64,000 bases of DNA from Mya arenaria (lineage: Eukaryota > Mollusca > Bivalvia > Myida > Myidae), in assembly GCF_026914265.1 (NCBI RefSeq), contig NC_069129.1:17593945-17657944 (forward strand), given 5' to 3'. The notes beneath the pieces are model-generated. The model did not search any database. It had not been told where the DNA came from and was given only the letters and a program-made list of their open reading frames with translations. Shown one piece after another: positions 5,861-59,585 of this stretch. The first letter of the stretch is position 1, and the number at the start of each line of letters is the position of its first letter. The position numbers and the translations under genes were made by a program.

Positions 5861-6619
5861 TGGCCGGGCAAGTAGATCGCGTAGTAATTTCAATTTAGCA
5901 GTTAAACTTTATGACTTAACTTTGGAATCTTGATTGTTTGCAATAATACACTTCACTAGCAATCAATTTAAACTTAGATCTACAAATAAAAGCTAAAACA
6001 CTAACGTACGAGGACCTAAAGTCGTCGGTTTTTTTCGGTCTCGTTTTCTCTCGCGTGGATTCTTTAAAGTCTTTTTACCCGCCATTATGTGAAAGGTAAA
6101 GTATTTATCTTTAAAAATATGTCCACGTTATCAAATGTTTTTAAAAACACACTGAAAGAGACACGCAAAAGTGTTGCTTGTGGTTTCCGTTATTAAGATG
6201 TGCTTGGGCGACAAGTAAGGCCTGTTATCGGTATGTTAGGGCGAATGTCATTTGCATGCACGCTGCCATTTTTACGCCATTACACGTAACTCTTATTGAC
6301 AATGTAACATTTGTCTCCTTTAAAGGTAAAGAAAACCTTCAAAGATCTAATAAAATCAAGAAATTCTGAGTTGACGAGTTTGGGTAGAGGGTGACGACTT
6401 AAAGTTACATTATTTTTTTTAATTATTGTACATGGATTTTCATGCATTTGCAATAATATAAACATCCATAACGATTAATAATGATGTAATAATACTTATA
6501 TAATATAACGAAATAATTATTATTTCTGTAGTTTATTGATATTTATAGTACAAAGGTAAATTAAAGATATGGAAAATCGACCGTCTTAATTACGAAAATG
6601 TTCCGAAAAGTCAATGATA

Positions 6620-7880
6620 TCTGCATACAATGCAGTTAAGTCAGGCAGAATGAGCATCTCTGCGAGTGCCAAACAGTTTAACGTCCCAAGAATGACATTG
6701 TCTGATAGAAATAACAGTAAAGTTCCACTCAAAGCAAAAATGGGTGTGAAAGCAGCCCTCACTGATGATGAATAATCTGCACTTTGTAGCTACAAGTCAT
6801 ACATGGACAACCGCGGATTTCCTCTTTCCATCAAACAAGTATTAGGCTTCGCTTGGTGTATCGCTAAGGAGCACGGGAAATGCGATGTTTTCATTAAAAT
6901 TGGACCGTCCAGGGATCGGTGGAACGGCTTTAAAACCAGGCATCCTGATCTCTGGCTGCGCAGGCCTGACGCATTGGACAGGGGTCGGGCTAGTTTAGGC
7001 AGTGTACAAAAACCTTCGAGAGTACTTTAGCTTATTGAAAGATACACTTGATAGCAACAACATTTCAGACAAAACTGAGCGCATATATAATTGCGACGAA
7101 GCTGCCCTCTTTTTGAATAAGTCTGCAGGTCAAAAGGTAATTGTACCTACCCGAATGAAACATGCGCACTCCTTGTCAGTGGCGACAAACGAGCATATTT
7201 CTGTGCACTGTTGTGTAAATTCTGCTGGAAACGCTCATCCCCCAATGATCATTTTCACAAATACCCTTTCCGGAGGTGCATACCATCGCCAGGGACCGAT
7301 TAATGCTACCTACGCCTGCTCTGACAGCGGTTTTATGGATCAAATTATGTACTTCCAGTGGTTTAAAGGAACTTTCCTGCAATATGCATTACCTCAACGC
7401 CCGGTGCTATTAATCCAAGACGGTGCATCGTCCCATGTAAGCGTGCCTCTTATAAGGTCCGCAGTAGCAAACGATGTCATCTTGCTATGTCTGCCATCAA
7501 AAACAACACACATTACTCAGCCATTTGGATGTTGCTGTCTATCGCAAAATGAAAATTGAAACAGCAAAAGTTGTGAGTTAAACCAAAATGGTAAAATCCG
7601 ATCTTTGGATTTCAAAGAAACAGGTCAGTGCCATTTTCAAGGTCAGTTTTGAGGAAAAAAGTTTCTCCATGAATTGTATCACTGAGGGGTTCAGAAAATG
7701 TGGTATTTACCCGTTTGACCCAAATGCGGTGGACAAAACACTACCTCTACGGTCATCCACTGAAGTTGATCCACTTAAAAATAAAATGCTTGAATCAACT
7801 GCTGATATTCACCAAAATTCTCAATCCATGATGATCGTCTGTCGGCCCAACCAACCAAGTTCAGCGTGCCTCGTCAGCCC
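6620..7880 (+). pseudogene. pogo/Tigger-like DDE transposase pseudogene
   Basis: An N-terminal psq/CENP-B-like helix-turn-helix is readable from about 6620 (residues ISASAKQFNVPRMTLSDR). It is cut by an in-frame TAA at 6773-6775 and continues with a second DNA-binding segment (KQVLGFAWCIA, then WNGFKTRHPDLWLRRP). The frame shifts near 6990-7002 and the catalytic core follows: first Asp in YNCDEAAL, second Asp in LIQDGASSH, and LPSKTTHITQP. One extra T in the run at 7524-7526 turns the expected QPLDV third-Asp motif into QPFG. In the shifted frame the Asp returns, but TAA at 7579-7581 stops it. The domain then resumes (GFRKCGIYPFDPNAVDKT), which is typical of the end of a pogo DDE domain. It would have cut and joined the element's own ends. 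Confidence 0.85.
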
Positions 7881-8039
7881 GCCACAAACGTGTGTTATCA
7901 GTCCGCCACAAACAAGCGTCGACCGCCGTGACAAATCGTCCCCTGGTCAAGGCAGGGTTGATTCCACAGACCTTGTAAATGTGCTAATTGTACCTACGCC
8001 AACACAAAACTCGACGAAAAGGAGCAGACTTGGAAAATC

Positions 8040-8320
8040 AAAGATACTTTACAAGTTCTGAAGTACAGCAGGAACTCGAAGAGAAGGAAAAACAAAAGCA
8101 CGAACTTATAGAACAGAAAACAAAACGTAAACAACAAAGGGAAGAAAACGTGTTCAAAGGGAAACCGAAAAGTTGAAAAGAAAGGTCGAACTTGAAAAAA
8201 GAAAAGAAGTAAGAGAGAAACTGAAAGCCGAAAACAAAAGGGCTAAACAGGAGAGAGCTAAGCAAAAAGAAATGAAGACCAAAAACACACATTCCAAAAA
8301 TTACTTGAATTTTGAAATTT
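8040..8320 (+). pseudogene. Lys/Glu-rich coiled-coil segment of the transposon
   Basis: Two overlapping frames give a highly charged helix: EVQQELEEKEKQKHELIEQK from 8056, and after a frame change near 8165, KLKRKVELEKRKEVREKLKA. The continuity of the heptad-like charge pattern across the frame change suggests one original coiled coil joining the DDE domain to the downstream domain. It ends at a stop after FEI near 8320. No family could be named from composition alone. Confidence 0.5.
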
Positions 8321-8339
8321 AAATTAACTGCACTATTCC

Positions 8340-8690
8340 ATCTTATTTTCTTCAAGTGTACAATGAAGATGATGGTCATACGTAACGTGCAGGTCGTTGG
8401 GATGCACCATTATGGTCGAAAAGAACTGGACTTGTTGGGGACATATCGGGTTGCGCTGGAGCCGAACAATGCACATGACGCCACGGCAGTTGCTGTTTTT
8501 GACGGGCCAAGAAAATGTGGAAACTTAAAGAGAGATTTGTCAAAGGAGAACACGAAATAATAAGTGAAAACAAGGCAAAATCAAAATACTTCTTTCGCCC
8601 GCTAGAGGAATCAATTGTCCGTAATCGCCGGACTGGTCCGCAGCAAACGTGTGGCATAGCACTCAAATTGGACGACGGCTACTTATATTA
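8340..8690 (+). pseudogene. HIRAN-like domain ORF inside the transposon
   Basis: The frame reads VQVVGMHHYG, then LLGTYRVALEPNNAHDATAV, then AVFDGPRKCGNLKRD. This fits the HIRAN pattern: a VVG strand, a G at the second strand, an E-P-x-N-x-x-D-x-x-A-V core and a terminal GxLxR. A frame change just after LKRDLSK opens a continuation (GEHEIISENKAKSKYFFRPL, later RRTGPQQTCGIALKL) that looks like the same protein. HIRAN domains bind DNA ends in HLTF/Rad5-type remodellers. TTCTTCAAG at 8349-8357 resembles a splice acceptor, so it may have been a 3' exon of the transposase rather than a separate gene. The assignment is by eye. Confidence 0.55.
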
Positions 8691-9276
8691 AGTCAATTAT
8701 ATGCAAAGGCGTCAGAGCATGACTGTATCAATGTGAAAATTATGGATTTGAAGACGAAATCGTAGATGCTTTTAATGTTTTAAACAAGAAGTGTATATTA
8801 ATATAGCTTTTTGATTTTATAGTTTTAAATTGACCACTATTACTTGTACAAACACTATGTTAATTAAAATGTAAAGTTATTTGAATGAACTCATGGTTAA
8901 AGTATTATCAGCTCCTTGTTTCATATACTTACTGTAAACTTTAATCAGATGTTAATGAGATAAATATCATTGATGCATTAACTATATTTCAGTTAAAATG
9001 TTCATTTAAAAAAAAAAAAGACATTGACATGATGACTTTAGGATACACTGACGAGCTTAAGAGCTCACTCAAGACGGCTTTATGAGCCATGTGTCCAATA
9101 GTCGTCAGGTCATACCCTGCTGTATATAGAGCATGTTTGCTTGTTAAATAGTGGTGATTCAAAATGTGCGGGAAAGGTGCCTTTATGTTTAATAGAAAAG
9201 CCGGTTACCATATAATCAAAATGCATGCATACATTGTAATACTTACCGCAGAAAGTGACGACTTTAGGTCCTCGTA

Positions 9277-9400
9277 CGTTGCATGTATTTAATAATTTAA
9301 TTCAGAAGTTTACGAACTACTTCTACCGATACACCGGCATACACCCGAGGTTGTTTTCGATAGAAATGGCCGAGGAGTTCCAAATGGCTCGAGACAAGTT
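9277..9400. repeat. Right part of the MITE that received the pogo transposon
   Basis: Reverse-complemented, this stretch matches the left half of the MITE at 16792-17125 (GAAGTAGTTCG, GGCATACACCCGAGG-like, GGCCGAGGAGTTCC). The other half of the same host element lies left of the transposon at about 5865-6006 and matches 16900-17030 (AATCAATTTAAACTTAGATC, ACTACGCGATCTACTT in complement). The host copy's outer left end is missing. Confidence 0.75.
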
Positions 9401-12800: not shown

Positions 12801-15749
12801 TCACTAGGTCAAATCTTACAAAAATCTTGTCCGAAACCATTTCATGGTAGTGATTGGTCGGATTATGTTCATACATGTATGACTGAACACATGATAATAA
12901 TCTAAACAAACTCAAACTTATATCCAACGTTCATAACGGCCCATTTCTCTGCAGCCATATTACATGTTAATATAGGAATATTCCACCTACTTTTCATTTC
13001 CAATGCATGAATTTTGCCTAATCAGGCGGAGCATATCGATTCAACAAATTTGCTTGTTTCATTTAAAATGGTAAAGAAATAGTTAAGTTATCTTTGTTTA
13101 ATGTCTTCATTTCATGCAAAATATTGCCTTCCGATGTAGCATTTATGGCGCAATTTAGCACGTGGTATACACAAACTGGTTAATAGCAACTATATATGTT
13201 ACAACGATAGGTATTACTACTATAATCAGATGTTTATATGCGTATTAGTATAACATGTATAACCATTTTCTTCTTCATTTTGTATATTCATTTATTTTAT
13301 TGTATATTAAAATGTTCAATGGTCGGATATTGCTCAGGGATGCTTATCCTTTTTTCAGGCACCTCACACATCGCTGTTTTCTTCACTGATAAGGATTTTG
13401 AACAGTCATAAAAGTTCGTTTAAACGCTGAAAATACCCTTCACCAAAAATTTAACACTAAACGTACACAATAATGCATAACTTTAAGCATTAAACTATCC
13501 ATTATGATATAAATTTATACAATATGTTTGCATTTCAGCGATCAGCGAGTTCGGGTTGGGGATTTATAGACCTGATGAAGTGATATCGACAGACTTTATG
13601 ATATTTGAATATTTTACGATTGCGACAAAACGATCTGTACCGTTATTTTACCAGTAGTGTACATTACTTTTTCAATGTATTTGGATTTGCTGATGTTTCT
13701 TACTTGTACACCAATGTTCTGCAAGCAATAGCCCCCCTGCCCCCCCCCCCCCCCCCAGTAATAAAATACGCCCCAAGGTGTCGGCAACATGTTTATCTTG
13801 ACCAATACGCCCACTGTAATATGATGATGATGACGATTGGAGCTAATATCGTACACCATTAAACGATTATCTAATGATGCCGCCTTGTTTATGTAGACTT
13901 GACGAATTATAACACCACAATTTGCCAAAAGAATGTCGAACTGGTCGCAGACTTACTCTATATGTTGACATATCGACATATGAAGTTTAATACGTTCCGT
14001 CAGTTTGAAATCAATATAGCATGTTTTATTCTTTTTGTAGATAAAAATAAGTTGTCATATCCTCTCAATAAGTAAACTAGTCGACATTACTTCAGCAATA
14101 AGTCGTAACAAGTCGACATAAACTAATCAAGTTGATATTAAACACAGGGAGAAGATAAAAAGGTCACGTCCTCAGTAAATACCATAAAAAACATACCCCT
14201 TTTTTACGAACTCTGCCCACAGTGTCATCATGGCTTCAGACAAGGCCCTGTCTTTATCCGGAACAGGAACTGGTATCACAACGTTAGGCGATAAGCCTAG
14301 TAACACCTTCAGATTGTCGACAAACCCAAACACAAATCCAACATCGTCGCTATGTTTGGCCCCCTTTAGCCAGTATGGGCGGACGTCAATTACAGCGAAG
14401 TACGGTGTATAGTCGAATTCATAAAGAAATGTTCGCCCAGGAAATTCGCCGGAACTGTGGGCGTTAGCGACGATCATTGCAGGCACTCTGAATATCATGT
14501 CCGTTGCAAACTCAATTATTTTTCCACGAACAAGCACAGGGTCATCATCGGAGGCGCTGGAGGTTGAGTACTCACTGATGGCAGATGCAATAAAGGCTGC
14601 CGACGCGGTCTTAGTTGAGATTTGACTTAGGGACATTGGAAGTACAACTCGTTCAAAAAATATTTTTGATACGCCTTCATCTACGTTTATACCACTGTTA
14701 ATCAAAGCGGGTTGCCCAATTGTCTGAAACAATAAGTAACCATCAAGGCTTGTTGATCCTATAAGAAGATCAATGTCACGGAAATAAGGGGAAGTCTCCT
14801 GGGTTAAATTTTGAGGATCTTTTTCTATGAATGTTCCATCTACGACTGGGAGTAGGTCATCTATTTTCTCGGCAATGGACAGCAATTCATTCATTGGCTT
14901 TCCTTTCATACAAACATAAGCAGCGTCCATGCCACCTTTATTGCAGTTTGTCTCATAAGCAAACTTTTGAAACACTGTTTGCGGACTGCGCTGGAGTGCA
15001 AAGTTCAAACTTGAGACGGGCGTCCCACTTTGAGCGATAACTCTTCGAAAGTTGCCTTTATTCTGTTGAAACATTGCTTGGTATATGGCGCTTGCGGCGC
15101 CTGCAGACTGTCCACCGACGGTAATACGGGAGGGGTCCCCACCAAAGTCCGCGATATTTCGCTGCACCCACTTCAGTGCGAGACTCTGGTCCCAAAGCCC
15201 CATGTTCCCTGATCCCGATGAACCGTCACTAAGGAAGCCGAACACGTTTAGTCTGTATTGGACAACAACAACTATGATATCTCCGAATGTAGACAGGATA
15301 TCGCCTGAGTAGAAGTACGCGCCGCCGAAGTAAAACGAGCCGCCATGGATCCACACGAGTACAGAGATGTTTGACGGACTACTTCCAGGGACGAATATGT
15401 TAAGATAAAGGCAATCTTCGCTGACGTTAAACCATCGAACCGCAGAGTCCATGCCTACCGTTTGCGGACAGAGCGGCGGGTTGATTGTGGCGTCATAATC
15501 TGACCTCATCACGTCTTTTGCCTCTGGCCTCTTGAAACGAAGGTTCCCAGTCGGCGGCTTTGCGTACGGCACTCCGAGAAATCTCGTGACATTGACATAC
15601 CTGACATCGCTGCTTGAAGACCGTGGTATAGCAATTGGCTCGGTAATCCCTGTAAATGTCCCCGAATTAGGCGCGGTTACAGTCCTTTTTGTCGACAGTG
15701 CAATGCTAAAACAGAGCACAAATAAAACTACCTGTATCAGACTAGCCAT
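9872..15749 (-). CDS. Carboxylesterase/cholinesterase-like enzyme, GPI-anchored type
   Basis: Two coding exons, 15749-14197 and 10175-9872, together 1857 nt = 618 residues. The donor GG|GTATGT at 14197/14196 and the acceptor TTTTCAG|AGACCC at 10176/10175 join in phase, and the joined protein continues KKG-DPNPASAQHEWPEY, the usual end of the family. Residues 1-19 are a signal peptide. Visible motifs: disulfide pair C94-C113 with SEDCLYLN, oxyanion HGG 135-137, nucleophile S215 in GQSAG (family usually GESAG), disulfide C269-C280, acid D336 (usually Glu) and H466 in KHSDD. Residues 560-586 are Cys/Gly rich. The last 15 are hydrophobic, like a GPI-anchor signal, so the enzyme is probably tethered outside the cell and hydrolyses esters; the substrate is unknown. 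The 4-kb intron is full of repeats. Two dead paralogues flank it. Confidence 0.88.
10451..10816. repeat. TTAA-flanked fold-back MITE, copy 1
   Basis: TTAA (10451-10454) is followed by AGCTACACTCTCACAGATTG; the other end reads AATCTGCGAGAGTGCAGCTT and then TTAA (10813-10816). The halves are inverted copies along most of their length (CTGACAAAAATCAGATCGCA against the TGCGATCTGATCTTTTGTCA side). Sister copies are at 33630-33970 and 46498-46827. It lies just upstream (plus coordinates) of the last esterase exon, within the intron. Confidence 0.8.
11063..11428. repeat. 46-bp minisatellite in the esterase intron
   Basis: About seven head-to-tail units each contain AACCCCACTACGCATGCGTT followed by CAATTACTAAACTACTCGAG and TATAGT. 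Each unit carries two palindromes (ACGCATGCGT and CTCGAG). The outer units are more diverged than the inner ones. Confidence 0.85.
11807..11940 (+). repeat. Dispersed repeat arm, inverted pair with 13045-13180
   Basis: It shares ACGTGATAAATTGCGTCATA, TCGGAAGGCAATATTTTGC and ATGAAACATAAC-like blocks with the complement of 13045-13180, and with 17165-17330 inside esterase pseudogene B. The inverted pair brackets about 1.1 kb of other repeats. It may be the ends of one transposable element. Confidence 0.6.
11957..12109. repeat. Small fold-back element
   Basis: The left end CCGGAGTATGATTGAGAGTT and AAAACACTTTGACAAACCT return in inverted order on the right as AGGTTTGTCGAAGTGTTTGA and AAATTAAACTCCGG. 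The total is about 150 bp. Confidence 0.55.
12240..12860. repeat. Diverged repeat with DR2 nuclear-receptor-like half-sites
   Basis: Two larger units of about 290 bp repeat the order GATTGGTCAGA-like, ATGTTCAAACTTGGTCAG, TGATCAAAT-like, GTGGGTCACATGGGGT, CTAGGTCACTAGGTCAAATC and TTAGAAAAATCTTTGGAAC. AGGTCA-NN-AGGTCA direct repeats occur at 12339-12352, 12481-12494 and 12798-12811, with a degenerate one near 12625. It is non-coding and resembles a repeat common in bivalves, from memory. Confidence 0.65.
13045..13180 (-). repeat. Dispersed repeat arm (inverted relative to 11807-11940)
   Basis: The complement contains ATACCACGTGCTAAATTGCG, CATCGGAAGGCAATATTTTG and ATTAAACAAAGATAACTTAA, in line with 11807-11940 and 17165-17330. 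Confidence 0.6.
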
Positions 15750-15796
15750 ATTAAACTATGAATATATGCTTTACGCTGTTAAGTTGTATACGTCCC

Positions 15797-37100: not shown

Positions 37101-40100
37101 TCTTTCATATAAGAGCGTCATTTCAGCATATGGTATGTGTACTTTTCTGCCTTAAAGGACAAAGAGCATCTGCTGGAAATACCCAGACTTCTGTAAGCAT
37201 AGCAGATGTTTTGACCCCAAAGCCACCTTCACAGTCCCCTGCTAAACGCCCGTCCCAACAGAACCAGTCGATATCCGAGTTCCTGGCTAAGAAACGTAAG
37301 ATTGGGAAGGATGATGCAGATCAGGTGACTCTTAAGCAGGAAATCAACGGACTAACAACGGAAGAACTCGGACATTATGATGTAAGCTCCTTTCTGATAG
37401 ATTCATTAAACATAAGTTATTTTTACTATATATATATATAGTGAATGTATCTAATTCTTAAACTTATTAGCTTGTACATGTAATGAGAGTGTTCTTGAAC
37501 ATTTCAGCTTGTACATGTATTGAGAGTGTTCTTGAACATTTCAGCTTGTACATGTATTGAGAGTGTTCTTGAACATTTCAGCTTGTACATGTAATGAGAG
37601 TGTTCTTGAACATTTTAGCTTGTACATGTAATGAGAGTGTTCTTGAACATTTTAGCTTGTACATGTATTGAGAGTGTTCTTGAACATTTTAGCTTGTACA
37701 TGTATTGAGAGTGTTCTTGAACATTTTAGCTTGTACATGTATTGAGAGTGTTCTTGAACATTTTAGCTTGTACATGTATTGAGAGTGTTCTTGAACATTT
37801 TAGCTTGTACATGTATTGAGAGTGTTCTTGAACATTTTAGCTTGTACATGTATTGAGAGTGTTCTTGAACATTTTAGCTTGTACATGTAATGAGAGTGTT
37901 CTTGAACATTTCAGCTTGTACATGTAATGAGAGTGTTCTTGAACATTTTAGCTTGTACATGTATTGAGAGTGTTCTTGAACATTTTAGCTTGTACATGTA
38001 TTGAGAGTGTTCTTGAACATTTTAGCTTGTACATGTATTGAGAGTGTTCTTGAACATTTTAGCTTGTACATGTATTGAGAGTGTTCTTGAACATTTCAGC
38101 TTGTACATGTAATGAGAGTGTTCTTGAACATTTTAGCTTGTACATGTAATGAGAGTGTTCTTGAACATTTTAGCTTGTACATGTATTGAGAGTGTTCTTG
38201 AACATTTCAGCTTGTACATGTATTGAGAGTGTTCTTGAACATTTTAGCTTGTACATGTATTGAGAGTGTTCTTGAACATTTTAGCTTGTACATGTATTGA
38301 GAGTGTTCTTGAACATTTTAGCTTGTACATGTATTGAGAGTGTTCTTGAACATTTTAGCTTGTACATGTATTGAGAGTGTTCTTGAACATTTTAGCTTAT
38401 ACATGTATTGAGAGTGTTCTTGAACATTTTAGCTTATACATGTATTGAGAGTGTTCTTGAACATTTTAGCTTATACATGTATTGAGAGTGTTCTTGAACA
38501 TTTTAGCTTATACATGTATTGAGAGTGTTCTTGAACATTTTAGCTTCTACATGTATTGAGAGTGTTCTTGAACATTTTAGCTTGTACATGTATTGAGAGT
38601 GTTCTTGAACATTTTAGCTTGTACATGTAATGAGAGTGTTCTTAAACATTTTAGCTTACATACATTTATTGTAATGAGAGTGTTCTTACATAATAGAGTT
38701 ATAAAACATGTAATAATTTTCTAAAATAAACTTCAACTAACAACAACAAATTTTTTATTTTGATATCACTAGTGTTAACATGACATGTATCTACAACTAC
38801 ACAGCTTTCATGTTGAAAGTGCTGAAAAGATGCAGTGTATATGACACTTTCCTGTATTTTACAGACAGAAGCACTGATTAAGCGGCTCTCATCCCTGGAA
38901 AGTTCAGCGTCATGTGATGCAGCTATCAGAGAAAAAATTGCGAAGCTTCCCCCAGAGGTTTCAGATATTTCCCAGTTGGCAAAACTGCATGGTAGGAAGG
39001 ACTTGAGTTTGTTATCTGACTGTTGTTGGAGTAAAAACCTCAAAATAAGATTTTTTCAAATCTGTGTTCATTCTATAAAGGATTTATAAACAAGTTTTCT
39101 AAATTTGATAAAAACAAACTCTTATTAAAAAAATTATTGAATGACCACGAAAGGGGTATATTATTTATATTATAATTACTATTAAAATTAAAATAATCAA
39201 ACTCAAAAAACATAAAACTTTGCATTAAGCGCTCATTTTACAACACTTTTCATATATTATGTCTTGTCAAGTTATGACACCAGTTATATATATCAATAAC
39301 ATGTCTTGATGTTATTTTTTTATGGTGATGTCATTTATAACATAATTGAAAACACTATCTTGCAAAATTTCTTATTCAATTCTTTTTAAATTCTGTTTCA
39401 GACAAGGAATCTGCAAGGAGGTTGTCAGATATTGTAGACAGTGCATGTTCAATGCTGACTGATTACAACAAGCGCCTGTCCACCGAGATGGAGGAACGAA
39501 GGAATCTCGCCAAGATGCTCCGGGCCTTCGTTCTCGCACAATCAGAGCAGCTACATCATGCAGAGAAACGGTTACAGGTGAGAGTGTAATGTTGTTTTTG
39601 TAAATGGCGTATTTTCTTAATTCAGGGAAAACTAATAAGTCGCAAGATGTGAATTCACGGATGTGAAAAATGAGGATTGCAAGCTTGCATTTTCAGACTT
39701 GTACATTTGTGAGTTTTTTATTGCAGGTCTCTTACATGAAAGTGACACTCTTATTCAAAATCAATACAAACACGTGTATAACAAACAAAAATTTTGAATG
39801 GTAAACCTTTTAACTACTTACTAAATAATGCATTTTTGAAAAATATTAATTACTGATAACATTGTAACAGTGTATTTAATTGCTGAAAACGCAAAAAATA
39901 AATAAAAGATTGATGAATGCTAAAAGATTTACTGTGATCTACTATTGTTTAATGAGGTAGAAATAACGTGTTTTCTGCACTTTTCATTCAAATTAAACTT
40001 GGTATCCTTCATAACAACCATTGTTTTCCACACTTATTTATCCTTTTTGATATACTACAACAATTTTATTAATTTTGGTAAATCTTATTTGGGAGTAAGA

Positions 40101-53960: not shown

Positions 53961-54002
53961 ACAGTTTATCTTAATTCAACTGATAACCGTCTGTCATAAT
54001 AA

Positions 54003-55060
54003 TACAGGTGAAAACATATACATAATACAGTTGAATACATATAATCAATAGAGGTAAATAATATAAACAATACAGGTACATACATATAAACAATACAGGT
54101 GGATACATATAAACAATAGAGGTAAATACATATAAACAATACAGGTACATACATATAAACAATACAGGTGGATACATATAAACAATAGAGGTAAATACAT
54201 ATAAACAATACAGGTGGATACATATAAACAATACAGGTGGATACATATAAACAATAGAGGTAAATACATATAAACAATACAGGTACATACATATAAACAA
54301 TAGAGGTAAATACATATAAACAATAGAGGTAAATACATATAAACAATACAGGTACATACATATAAACAATAGAGGTGGATACATATAAACAATACAGGTA
54401 AATACATATAAACAATACAGGTACATACATATAAACAATAGAGGTAAATACATATAAACAATACAGGTGGATACATATAAACAATACAGGTGGATACATA
54501 TAAACAATACAGGTGGATACATATAAACAATACAGGTGGATACATATAAACAATACAGGTAAATACATATAAACAATACAGGTGGATACATATAAACAAT
54601 AGAGGTAAATACATATAAACAATACAGGTGGATACATATAAACAATACAGGTGGATACATATAAACAATAGAGGTAAATACATATAAACAATACAGGTAC
54701 ATACATATAAACAATAGAGGTGGATACATATAAACAATACAGGTAAATACATATAAACAATACAGGTACATACATATAAACAATAGAGGTAAATACATAT
54801 AAACAATACAGGTGGATACATATAAACAATACAGGTGGATACATATAAACAATACAGGTGGATACATATAAACAATAGAGGTAAATACATATAAACAATA
54901 CAGGTGGATACATATAAACAATACAGGTAAATACATATAAACAATACAGGTGGATACATATAAACAATAGAGGTAAATACATATAAACAATACAGGTGGA
55001 TACATATAAACAATACAGGTAAATACATATAAACAAAACAGATGAATTTATGTAATCAAT
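54003..55060. repeat. 23-bp minisatellite, about 45 units, with higher-order structure
   Basis: The unit is ATACATATAAACAATACAGG plus three variable bases (TGG, TAA or TAC), with an AGAGG/ACAGG alternation. A block of about 13-14 units (order aa, ac, gag-gg, aa, ac, gag-aa, then three or four gg units) occurs twice, around 54300-54570 and 54610-54880, so larger segments were duplicated. All three minus-strand frames stay open for about 1 kb because no stop occurs in any phase of the unit; the predicted LFICIHLYCLYV-type repeats are not protein. Confidence 0.95.
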
Positions 55061-55264
55061 ACAGATTAAATAAATATGAACAATGTGTCGTCCGCGTAAG
55101 GACCCAGTGTTCATTCGTGTGTTTCGTTGGAATTGGATAATCCATCACTATCTATCTATTTGTTTATAACTGTGTCTAATTATAACCGAAGGTCATTCAT
55201 AATAAATAAGAGCTGATCTAACTGATATTGCATACTGTGAGCTATGTCGTAATTTAGAATGATC

Positions 55265-58744: not shown

Positions 58745-59585
58745 TAGTAAAGCTGGTCTCCAAGCTACCCGAGCCGCCAGGCTACCCGAGCCTCTTAGCT
58801 ATCCGCGCCTCCATTTAAGCTACGTATGCCTTCAGTCTGCCTGGGCCTCCTAGCTACCCGGACCTCCTAGATATTCGGGGATAGCTAGGCCTTGGAAGCT
58901 AAGAGGCCCAGGTACCCAGGAGATCCGGGCAGCTAGGAGGCCCGGGTAGTTAGAAGGCCCGGGTAGCCAGAAGGCATGAGTAGCTCGGATGCCCAGGTAA
59001 CAAGGAGGCCCGGATAGCTAGGAGCCTAGCTTCCACTGCCTTCTACCTTCCCGGGTCTCCAAGCTTTCCGGGTCTCCAAGCTTTCCGGGCCTCCTAGCTA
59101 CCCAGGCCTCCTAGCCAACCGGGCTTCCTAGCTACCCGGGCCTCCTAGCTAATTGGGCCTCCAAGCTACCCGGGCCTCCAAGCTACCCGAACTCCTAGCT
59201 ACCCGGGCCTCCAAGCTTCCCGGGCCTCTTAGCCACTCTGGCCTCCTAGCTACCCGGGCCTCCTAGCTAACCGGGCCACCAAGCTACCCGGGTCTCCTAC
59301 CTACCCGAACCTCTTAGCCACCCTGGCCCCATAGCTACCCTGACCTCCTAACTACCCGGGTCTCCTACATACCCTGGCCTCTTAGCTACCCTGGCCTCCT
59401 ACCTACCCGGGCCTCTAAGCCACCCTGGCCTCCAAGCTACCCTGACCTCCTACCTACCCCGGCCTTTTAGCCACCCAGGCATCCTAGCTACCCGGGCCTC
59501 CTACGTAACCGGGCTTTTAGCTACCCGGGCCTCCAAGCTACCCGGGCCTCTTAGCTAACCGGGCCTCCAAGCTACCCGGGCGTAT
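58745..59585. repeat. GC-rich 16-17-bp array with an inverted central block
   Basis: The unit is about CTACCCGGGCCTCCTAG. In 58755-58870 and 59040-59585 the units read in this orientation. In 58872-59035 they read as the complement (AGGAGGCCCGGGTAG). The array sits in AT-rich surroundings and is an obvious composition island. Many units carry CCCGGG and AGCT palindromes. Confidence 0.9.

Follow-up and report, generated by a model that had tools for sequence, protein, structure and literature searches.

A 64,000-nucleotide stretch of Mya arenaria DNA (the window) contains a decayed DNA transposon of the pogo superfamily, and this element has a HIRAN-like module as cargo of its own. This conclusion is supported by the anatomy of the element, by inheritance of the module together with it, by recurrence of the module at two more distant loci of the same genome (L057 and L024) and in Mactra, and by codon conservation between these lineages. 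The copy in the window is dead; its active ancestors would have encoded HIRAN 3′ of the transposase, and this HIRAN would have bound 3′-OH overhangs at the transposon ends, a reading to which we give a slightly better than even chance. Descriptions of animal cut-and-paste transposons of this kind usually mention little besides the transposase. A conserved cargo domain that binds DNA ends like that of HLTF would connect such an element with the biology of replication forks or break ends, and would give a direct test of how animal transposons set the time and place of their jumps, or of how their ends are protected.

The sequence-only reading that preceded this analysis knew of no described pogo element with this layout. 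In agreement, open-access full-text search listings for HIRAN combined with transposon, transposase, Tigger or pogo returned no pogo or other transposase element with HIRAN; subscription papers and Repbase lay outside this scope. The word HIRAN was likewise absent from the main text of two pogo surveys (PMC7325037 and PMC7386202), and a HIRAN domain is mentioned in a paper on polyvalent proteins from the mobile elements of bacteria (PMC5512222).

Anatomy and family placement of the element

The element occupied positions 6009-9274 of the + strand (3.27 kb). It was bounded by perfect 18-bp terminal inverted repeats (TIRs) at 6009-6026 (+ strand) and 9257-9274 (- strand), with TA immediately outside at 6007-6008 and 9275-9276; a repeat tool extended the complementary arms to 6003-6031 and 9252-9280 (29 nt, 93%). 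Between the ends, an HTH_psq domain, a DDE_1 domain, a Lys/Glu coil and the HIRAN-like segment followed one another on the + strand. Thus, the perfect ends and TA flanks that had been read from the letters were confirmed, as were the DDE remnant, coil and HIRAN segment, which all lay on one strand, and the element is dead here as had been stated, because its frames are broken many times. An internal copy of the terminal motif at 6386-6405 (+ strand, 80% to 9250-9269) is a probable subterminal transposase-binding repeat, and the 3′ non-coding part at 8766-9256 (+ strand) held more terminal-motif-like repeats at about 9032-9110.

Pfam searches located the HTH_psq DNA-binding domain of the transposase at 6590-6775 (match 6590-6772, E 2.9e-6) and the DDE_1 catalytic domain at 6999-7559 (match 6999-7556, E 3.4e-13), both on the + strand. 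The first and second Asp of DDE_1 were present in the window, and the frame was broken just ahead of the third. A second DNA-binding segment at 6776-7030 (+ strand) corresponded to HTH_Tnp_Tc5 in the related protein P0001 (P numbers denote related proteins, and L numbers loci of the same genome from DNA and DDE searches), and a Pfam search of the window piece 6776-7027 gave no match. Reading frames and copies delimited the C-terminal part of the transposase, with a GFRKCGIYPFDPNA motif and a linker, to 7582-8061 (+ strand), and the Lys/Glu-rich coiled coil lay between DDE and HIRAN at 8131-8322 (+ strand). P0001 had both HTH_psq and HTH_Tnp_Tc5 together with a spacing of 35 between the second and third catalytic residues. 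This DD35D spacing was found in all 26 relatives in which the pattern was measurable (41 scanned).

These features placed the element in the pogo superfamily, with which it shares TA flanks, HTH_psq, DDE_1 and, through its relatives, HTH_Tnp_Tc5 and DD35D. Its TIR is also below 40 bp, the usual range of pogo families; the HIRAN module is extra here. Within the superfamily, the Fot/Fot-like signature is HTH_psq and/or HTH_Tnp_Tc5 with DD35D (Gao et al. 2020, PMC7386202), and that of Tigger is CENP-B_N plus HTH_Tnp_Tc5, or HTH_Tnp_Tc5 alone (PMC7386202). CENP-B_N stayed below its cut-off in the window (E 0.21) and in the related copy L009 (E 0.0012, 18.9 versus 21.2 bits), whereas HTH_psq exceeded its cut-off in both, a combination that speaks against Tigger without excluding it. 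Therefore, of the earlier label pogo/Tigger-like, the pogo part held on the evidence of TIRs, TA and DDE_1, and the Tigger part gave way to a domain set that suits Fot/Fot-like better, a placement made by domain set rather than by a tree with named references. The TIR here (18 bp perfect, or 29 nt at 93%) is nevertheless shorter than those of Fot and Fot-like elements, which are mostly 40-60 bp (PMC7386202).

Identity and inheritance of the HIRAN-like segment

The HIRAN open reading frame, with an ATG at 8363, ran to 8765 on the + strand and was spread over three frames (8309-8560, 8503-8691 and 8625-8765). The Pfam HIRAN model (PF08797) matched window positions 8309-8557 with 22.1 bits (E 1.4e-4) and the shorter piece 8309-8535 with 17.9 bits, and it matched the genomic copies L011 and L012 with 20.6 and 22.8 bits and a predicted protein of Mactra antiquata (P0079) with 22.4 bits. 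Hence the HIRAN-type segment reported inside the element does receive a HIRAN score, though all pieces, even the best at 22.8 bits, remained below the curated cut-off of 24.7 bits. The second half in the window (8503-8688) had no Pfam match. Since the tail of the frame matched P0079 in L009, L013, L015 and L057, the HIRAN frame probably extends to about 8765, past the 8690 given earlier.

Among solved structures, the P0079 domain as query returned five sequences at E values up to 10, all five HLTF (best E 0.008). These five also headed the matches of a nine-row profile (E 0.04-0.08), with two unrelated entries ranked below them, and the window HIRAN piece alone retrieved nothing relevant. EPNNA-D of the transposon aligned with DPNNPYD of HLTF. 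Numbered by our count on the alignment of the P0079 domain to HLTF, the pocket residues among nine rows (with L017 and L018 identical, and L014 and L015 gapped there and not counted) were retained as follows: Asn91 in eight, Asn90 in six, both in five, Asp94 in seven and Tyr93 in five. Asn91 was also present in L024 and P0079. In HLTF, double mutation of Asn90 and Asn91 abolished HIRAN function (PMC4666394; PMC11237066). The transposon segment and HLTF HIRAN appear as the same domain by Pfam, below cut-off, and by the match to HLTF structures, with Asn91 and Asp94 common to HLTF and most transposon copies. They differ in that the transposon domain has His at the Tyr72 position and another C-terminal half (RTGPQQTC...), and that HLTF HIRAN sits with SNF2 and RING domains, whereas the transposon HIRAN lies beside a transposase; the window itself also has His at Tyr93. 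The AlphaFold model of P0079 was unreliable over HIRAN (pLDDT about 33-68) and too weak for a fold search. We regard the segment as a HIRAN domain that has diverged.

By DNA search, ten further genomic places were seen to carry the HIRAN segment, and all ten were retrieved. A transposase piece lay upstream of HIRAN on the same strand in nine of them. Within each of the ten, the divergence of HIRAN from the window was similar to that of the other retained parts of the element, several copies having lost some parts; L009, for example, gave identities of.92,.91,.88 and.89 over HIRAN, transposase and non-coding parts. Equal divergence of the parts is predicted by a shared history and not by a late insertion. 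Accordingly, insertion of an unrelated HIRAN segment into the window copy was rejected, since other copies had HIRAN in the corresponding position and their divergence matched. The ten places represent fewer independent events, because some copies duplicate one insertion: L014 and L015, and likewise L011 and L013, had the same right flanks, and L017 and L018, which matched alike, are probably duplicates of one insertion. The right-end motif was recovered within 3 mismatches in 7 of the 10 fetched copies, L010 standing at 3 mismatches; it was followed by TA in the window, L012 and L014, and TA was absent after it in L009, L011, L013 and L015. Near its right end, L011 carried four repeats of a 42-bp subterminal unit starting GACGACTTTAGG (L011:5162-5330), possibly extra transposase-binding sites.

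The ten copies were retrieved through HIRAN itself, and so the share of HIRAN-bearing copies among them is biased. Copies from the DDE search were also considered. Among the copies examined (L041, L045 and others being left out), sequence 3′ of the coil was kept with HIRAN in the window, L009, L012, L014, L015 and L017/L018, and without it in L061, a decayed copy with the coil, the 3′ piece and about 820 bp of unrelated sequence where HIRAN was expected. In L062-L064, recognisable homology stopped ahead of the coil. Intact copies lacking the segment, named beforehand as the sign of an unrelated nested insertion, were not seen; the one copy without HIRAN, L061, is itself decayed. Across six nearby copies, non-majority letters were nearly even over codon positions 1, 2 and 3 (.105/.095/.121), suggesting that these copies decayed in a near-neutral manner.

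HIRAN in other transposase lineages and another species

The DDE search of the genome gave 140 matches, two of which led to HIRAN in more distant elements. At L057, a reverse-strand locus with a DDE 58% identical, the C-terminal half of HIRAN and the tail lay 3′ of the coil, and the N-terminal half was not found. At L024 (DDE 59% identical), HIRAN followed the left end and preceded the transposase, so that its position was 5′ instead of 3′. No second copy of this HIRAN DNA was found; the more diverged element at L024:4979-9166 also had terminal motifs in tandem. L058 and L059, the tree neighbours of L057 and L024, both had internal deletions and showed no convincing HIRAN. A protein search yielded 104 relatives, among which the closest bearing organism names came from Mytilus (P0011 and P0026) and HIRAN occurred in P0079 only. 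This Mactra antiquata protein, a partial gene model, combines a partial DDE_1, the coil and HIRAN in one prediction. It was 53% identical to the window over 101 aa, and its end coincided with the end of the L009 HIRAN frame. When the decayed HIRAN of the window was the query of a protein search, 79 candidates were obtained, none at E 0.01, and its silence says little because P0079 was missed too; with P0079 HIRAN as query, P0079 alone among 34 candidates was found at E 0.01.

In a tree of 67 fragments, the window, L057 and L024 fell in different branches. The window and L009 grouped with L028 (support.83), L057 with L058 and P0008 (.97), and L024 with L059, P0004 and P0006 (.93), where P0079, represented by 49 residues only, also joined (.78). 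Between these lineages, HIRAN identities at codon positions 1, 2 and 3 were.59/.59/.31 (L009 versus L057) and.51/.67/.42 (window versus L024), the weakest comparison being the second half of L009 versus L024 (.42/.47/.33); the corresponding DDE values were.66/.84/.30 and.68/.84/.28. Because positions 1 and 2 were kept better than position 3, we conclude that selection acted on a translated HIRAN during the active life of the elements.

These data also bear on the possibility that the HIRAN of the window copy stems from a nested, unrelated insertion, or is a chance resemblance. The score below the curated cut-off, the absence of HIRAN from L061 and the long relatives whose reading ends before HIRAN would fit it, but the shared position and matching divergence in other copies, HIRAN in other transposase lineages and another species, and the codon-level constraint all count against it. 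The copy, lineage and codon results already contradict this possibility, which we regard as extremely improbable.

Other additions after the coil were seen among the relatives. A C-terminal GDGNC-type motif, presumably OTU/vertnin-like, followed the coil in 8 of the 104 (P0012, P0014, P0015, P0017, P0023, P0024, P0025 and P0029), and Pfam gave no match to the motif in P0012, P0014 and P0029; P0037 had a PHD finger added to the same kind of transposase. These relatives share the transposase and coil with the element and likewise have extra sequence after the coil, but the addition is not HIRAN. Since the GDGNC-type motif and the PHD finger both stand after the coil, repeated gain of 3′ modules may be a feature of this transposase clade.

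Expression and proposed role of HIRAN

In the six long relatives that were read (P0001-P0005 and P0007), the transposase open reading frame ended at or just after the coil. Most aligned copies of the window family had a stop between coil and HIRAN, and a direct in-frame fusion was rejected for this family, given that stop and the different frames of coil and HIRAN. L011 alone read through the coil into HIRAN, probably by chance. Just before the HIRAN start, a pyrimidine tract ending in AG (8330-8356, + strand) was present in most aligned copies and looks like a 3′ splice site; by eye, no splice donor matching the acceptor phase was seen in the aligned window-family copies. The Mactra model, in which coil and HIRAN are fused, supports fusion as far as an incomplete prediction can. 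HIRAN may have been joined to the transposase by alternative splicing of a 3′ exon, as the Mactra model would suggest, or may have been made from a second open reading frame.

Excision of the Tc1/mariner type leaves 3′ overhangs of 2-3 nt. The HIRAN of the transposon would have bound such short single-stranded 3′-OH overhangs at the transposon ends and donor flanks. Through this binding, the transposase complex could have stayed on the ends, or insertion and repair could have been steered. HLTF HIRAN binds the 3′-OH at a single-stranded DNA end (PMC11237066), and a single dinucleotide is accommodated in its pocket (PMC4666394). In our view, a grip on the 3′ ends of excision is the most likely role of the transposon HIRAN.

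Alternatively, HIRAN might steer the transposase to replication forks or other 3′-recessed DNA, as a eukaryotic counterpart of TnsE of Tn7 that replaces the PCNA-binding motif of pogo/Tigger. Binding to PCNA is described for pogo transposase, and TnsE binds both the clamp and 3′ ends that are recessed (PMC5371812). Consistent with such a replacement, the PIP-box pattern was found in none of 12 proteins (P0001-P0011 and P0079, some partial), but a missing loose motif proves little; among the 41 relatives scanned, the loose pattern was present in three (P0018, P0023 and P0027). TnsE serves as an analogy only: both proteins are encoded by their elements, and TnsE recognises 3′ ends as HIRAN is proposed to do, whereas TnsE belongs to a bacterial, multi-protein system. 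We consider this fork-directed role unlikely. A broader proposal is an animal pogo lineage with its own 3′-end-recognition module in place of a PCNA tether, whose transposase, fused to or partnered with HIRAN, would sense forks or excision overhangs as an independently evolved counterpart of the TnsE type; we hold it tentatively, as possible yet less than probable.

HIRAN could also have been a stand-alone decoy for HLTF, a host translocase, which would then have been unable to strip the transposase from the cleaved ends. At Cas9 breaks, isolated HIRAN had a dominant-negative effect on the resection that depends on HLTF, and it inhibited the removal of Cas9 (PMC11237066). The ATG of its own at 8363 and the position of HIRAN ahead of the transposase in L024 would suit a free protein, and the one genomic HIRAN match over the cut-off, at L019, resembles HLTF by our reading. 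On the other hand, the Mactra model shows a fusion and not a HIRAN on its own, and the literature cited here describes no action of HLTF on transposase complexes. A decoy role therefore seems doubtful to us, and end binding remains the reading that we favor. L019 was the sole match over the HIRAN cut-off among five in the genome search; its matched stretch contains a stop.

Elsewhere in the window, a long open frame on the - strand (14172-15755) encoded a carboxylesterase-family protein (PF00135, 3e-110). Three tandem arrays were also present, at 37455-38657 (37-bp unit, 32.5 copies, 98% matches), 54001-55084 (23-bp unit, 47 copies) and 59038-59581 (17-bp unit, 32 copies).
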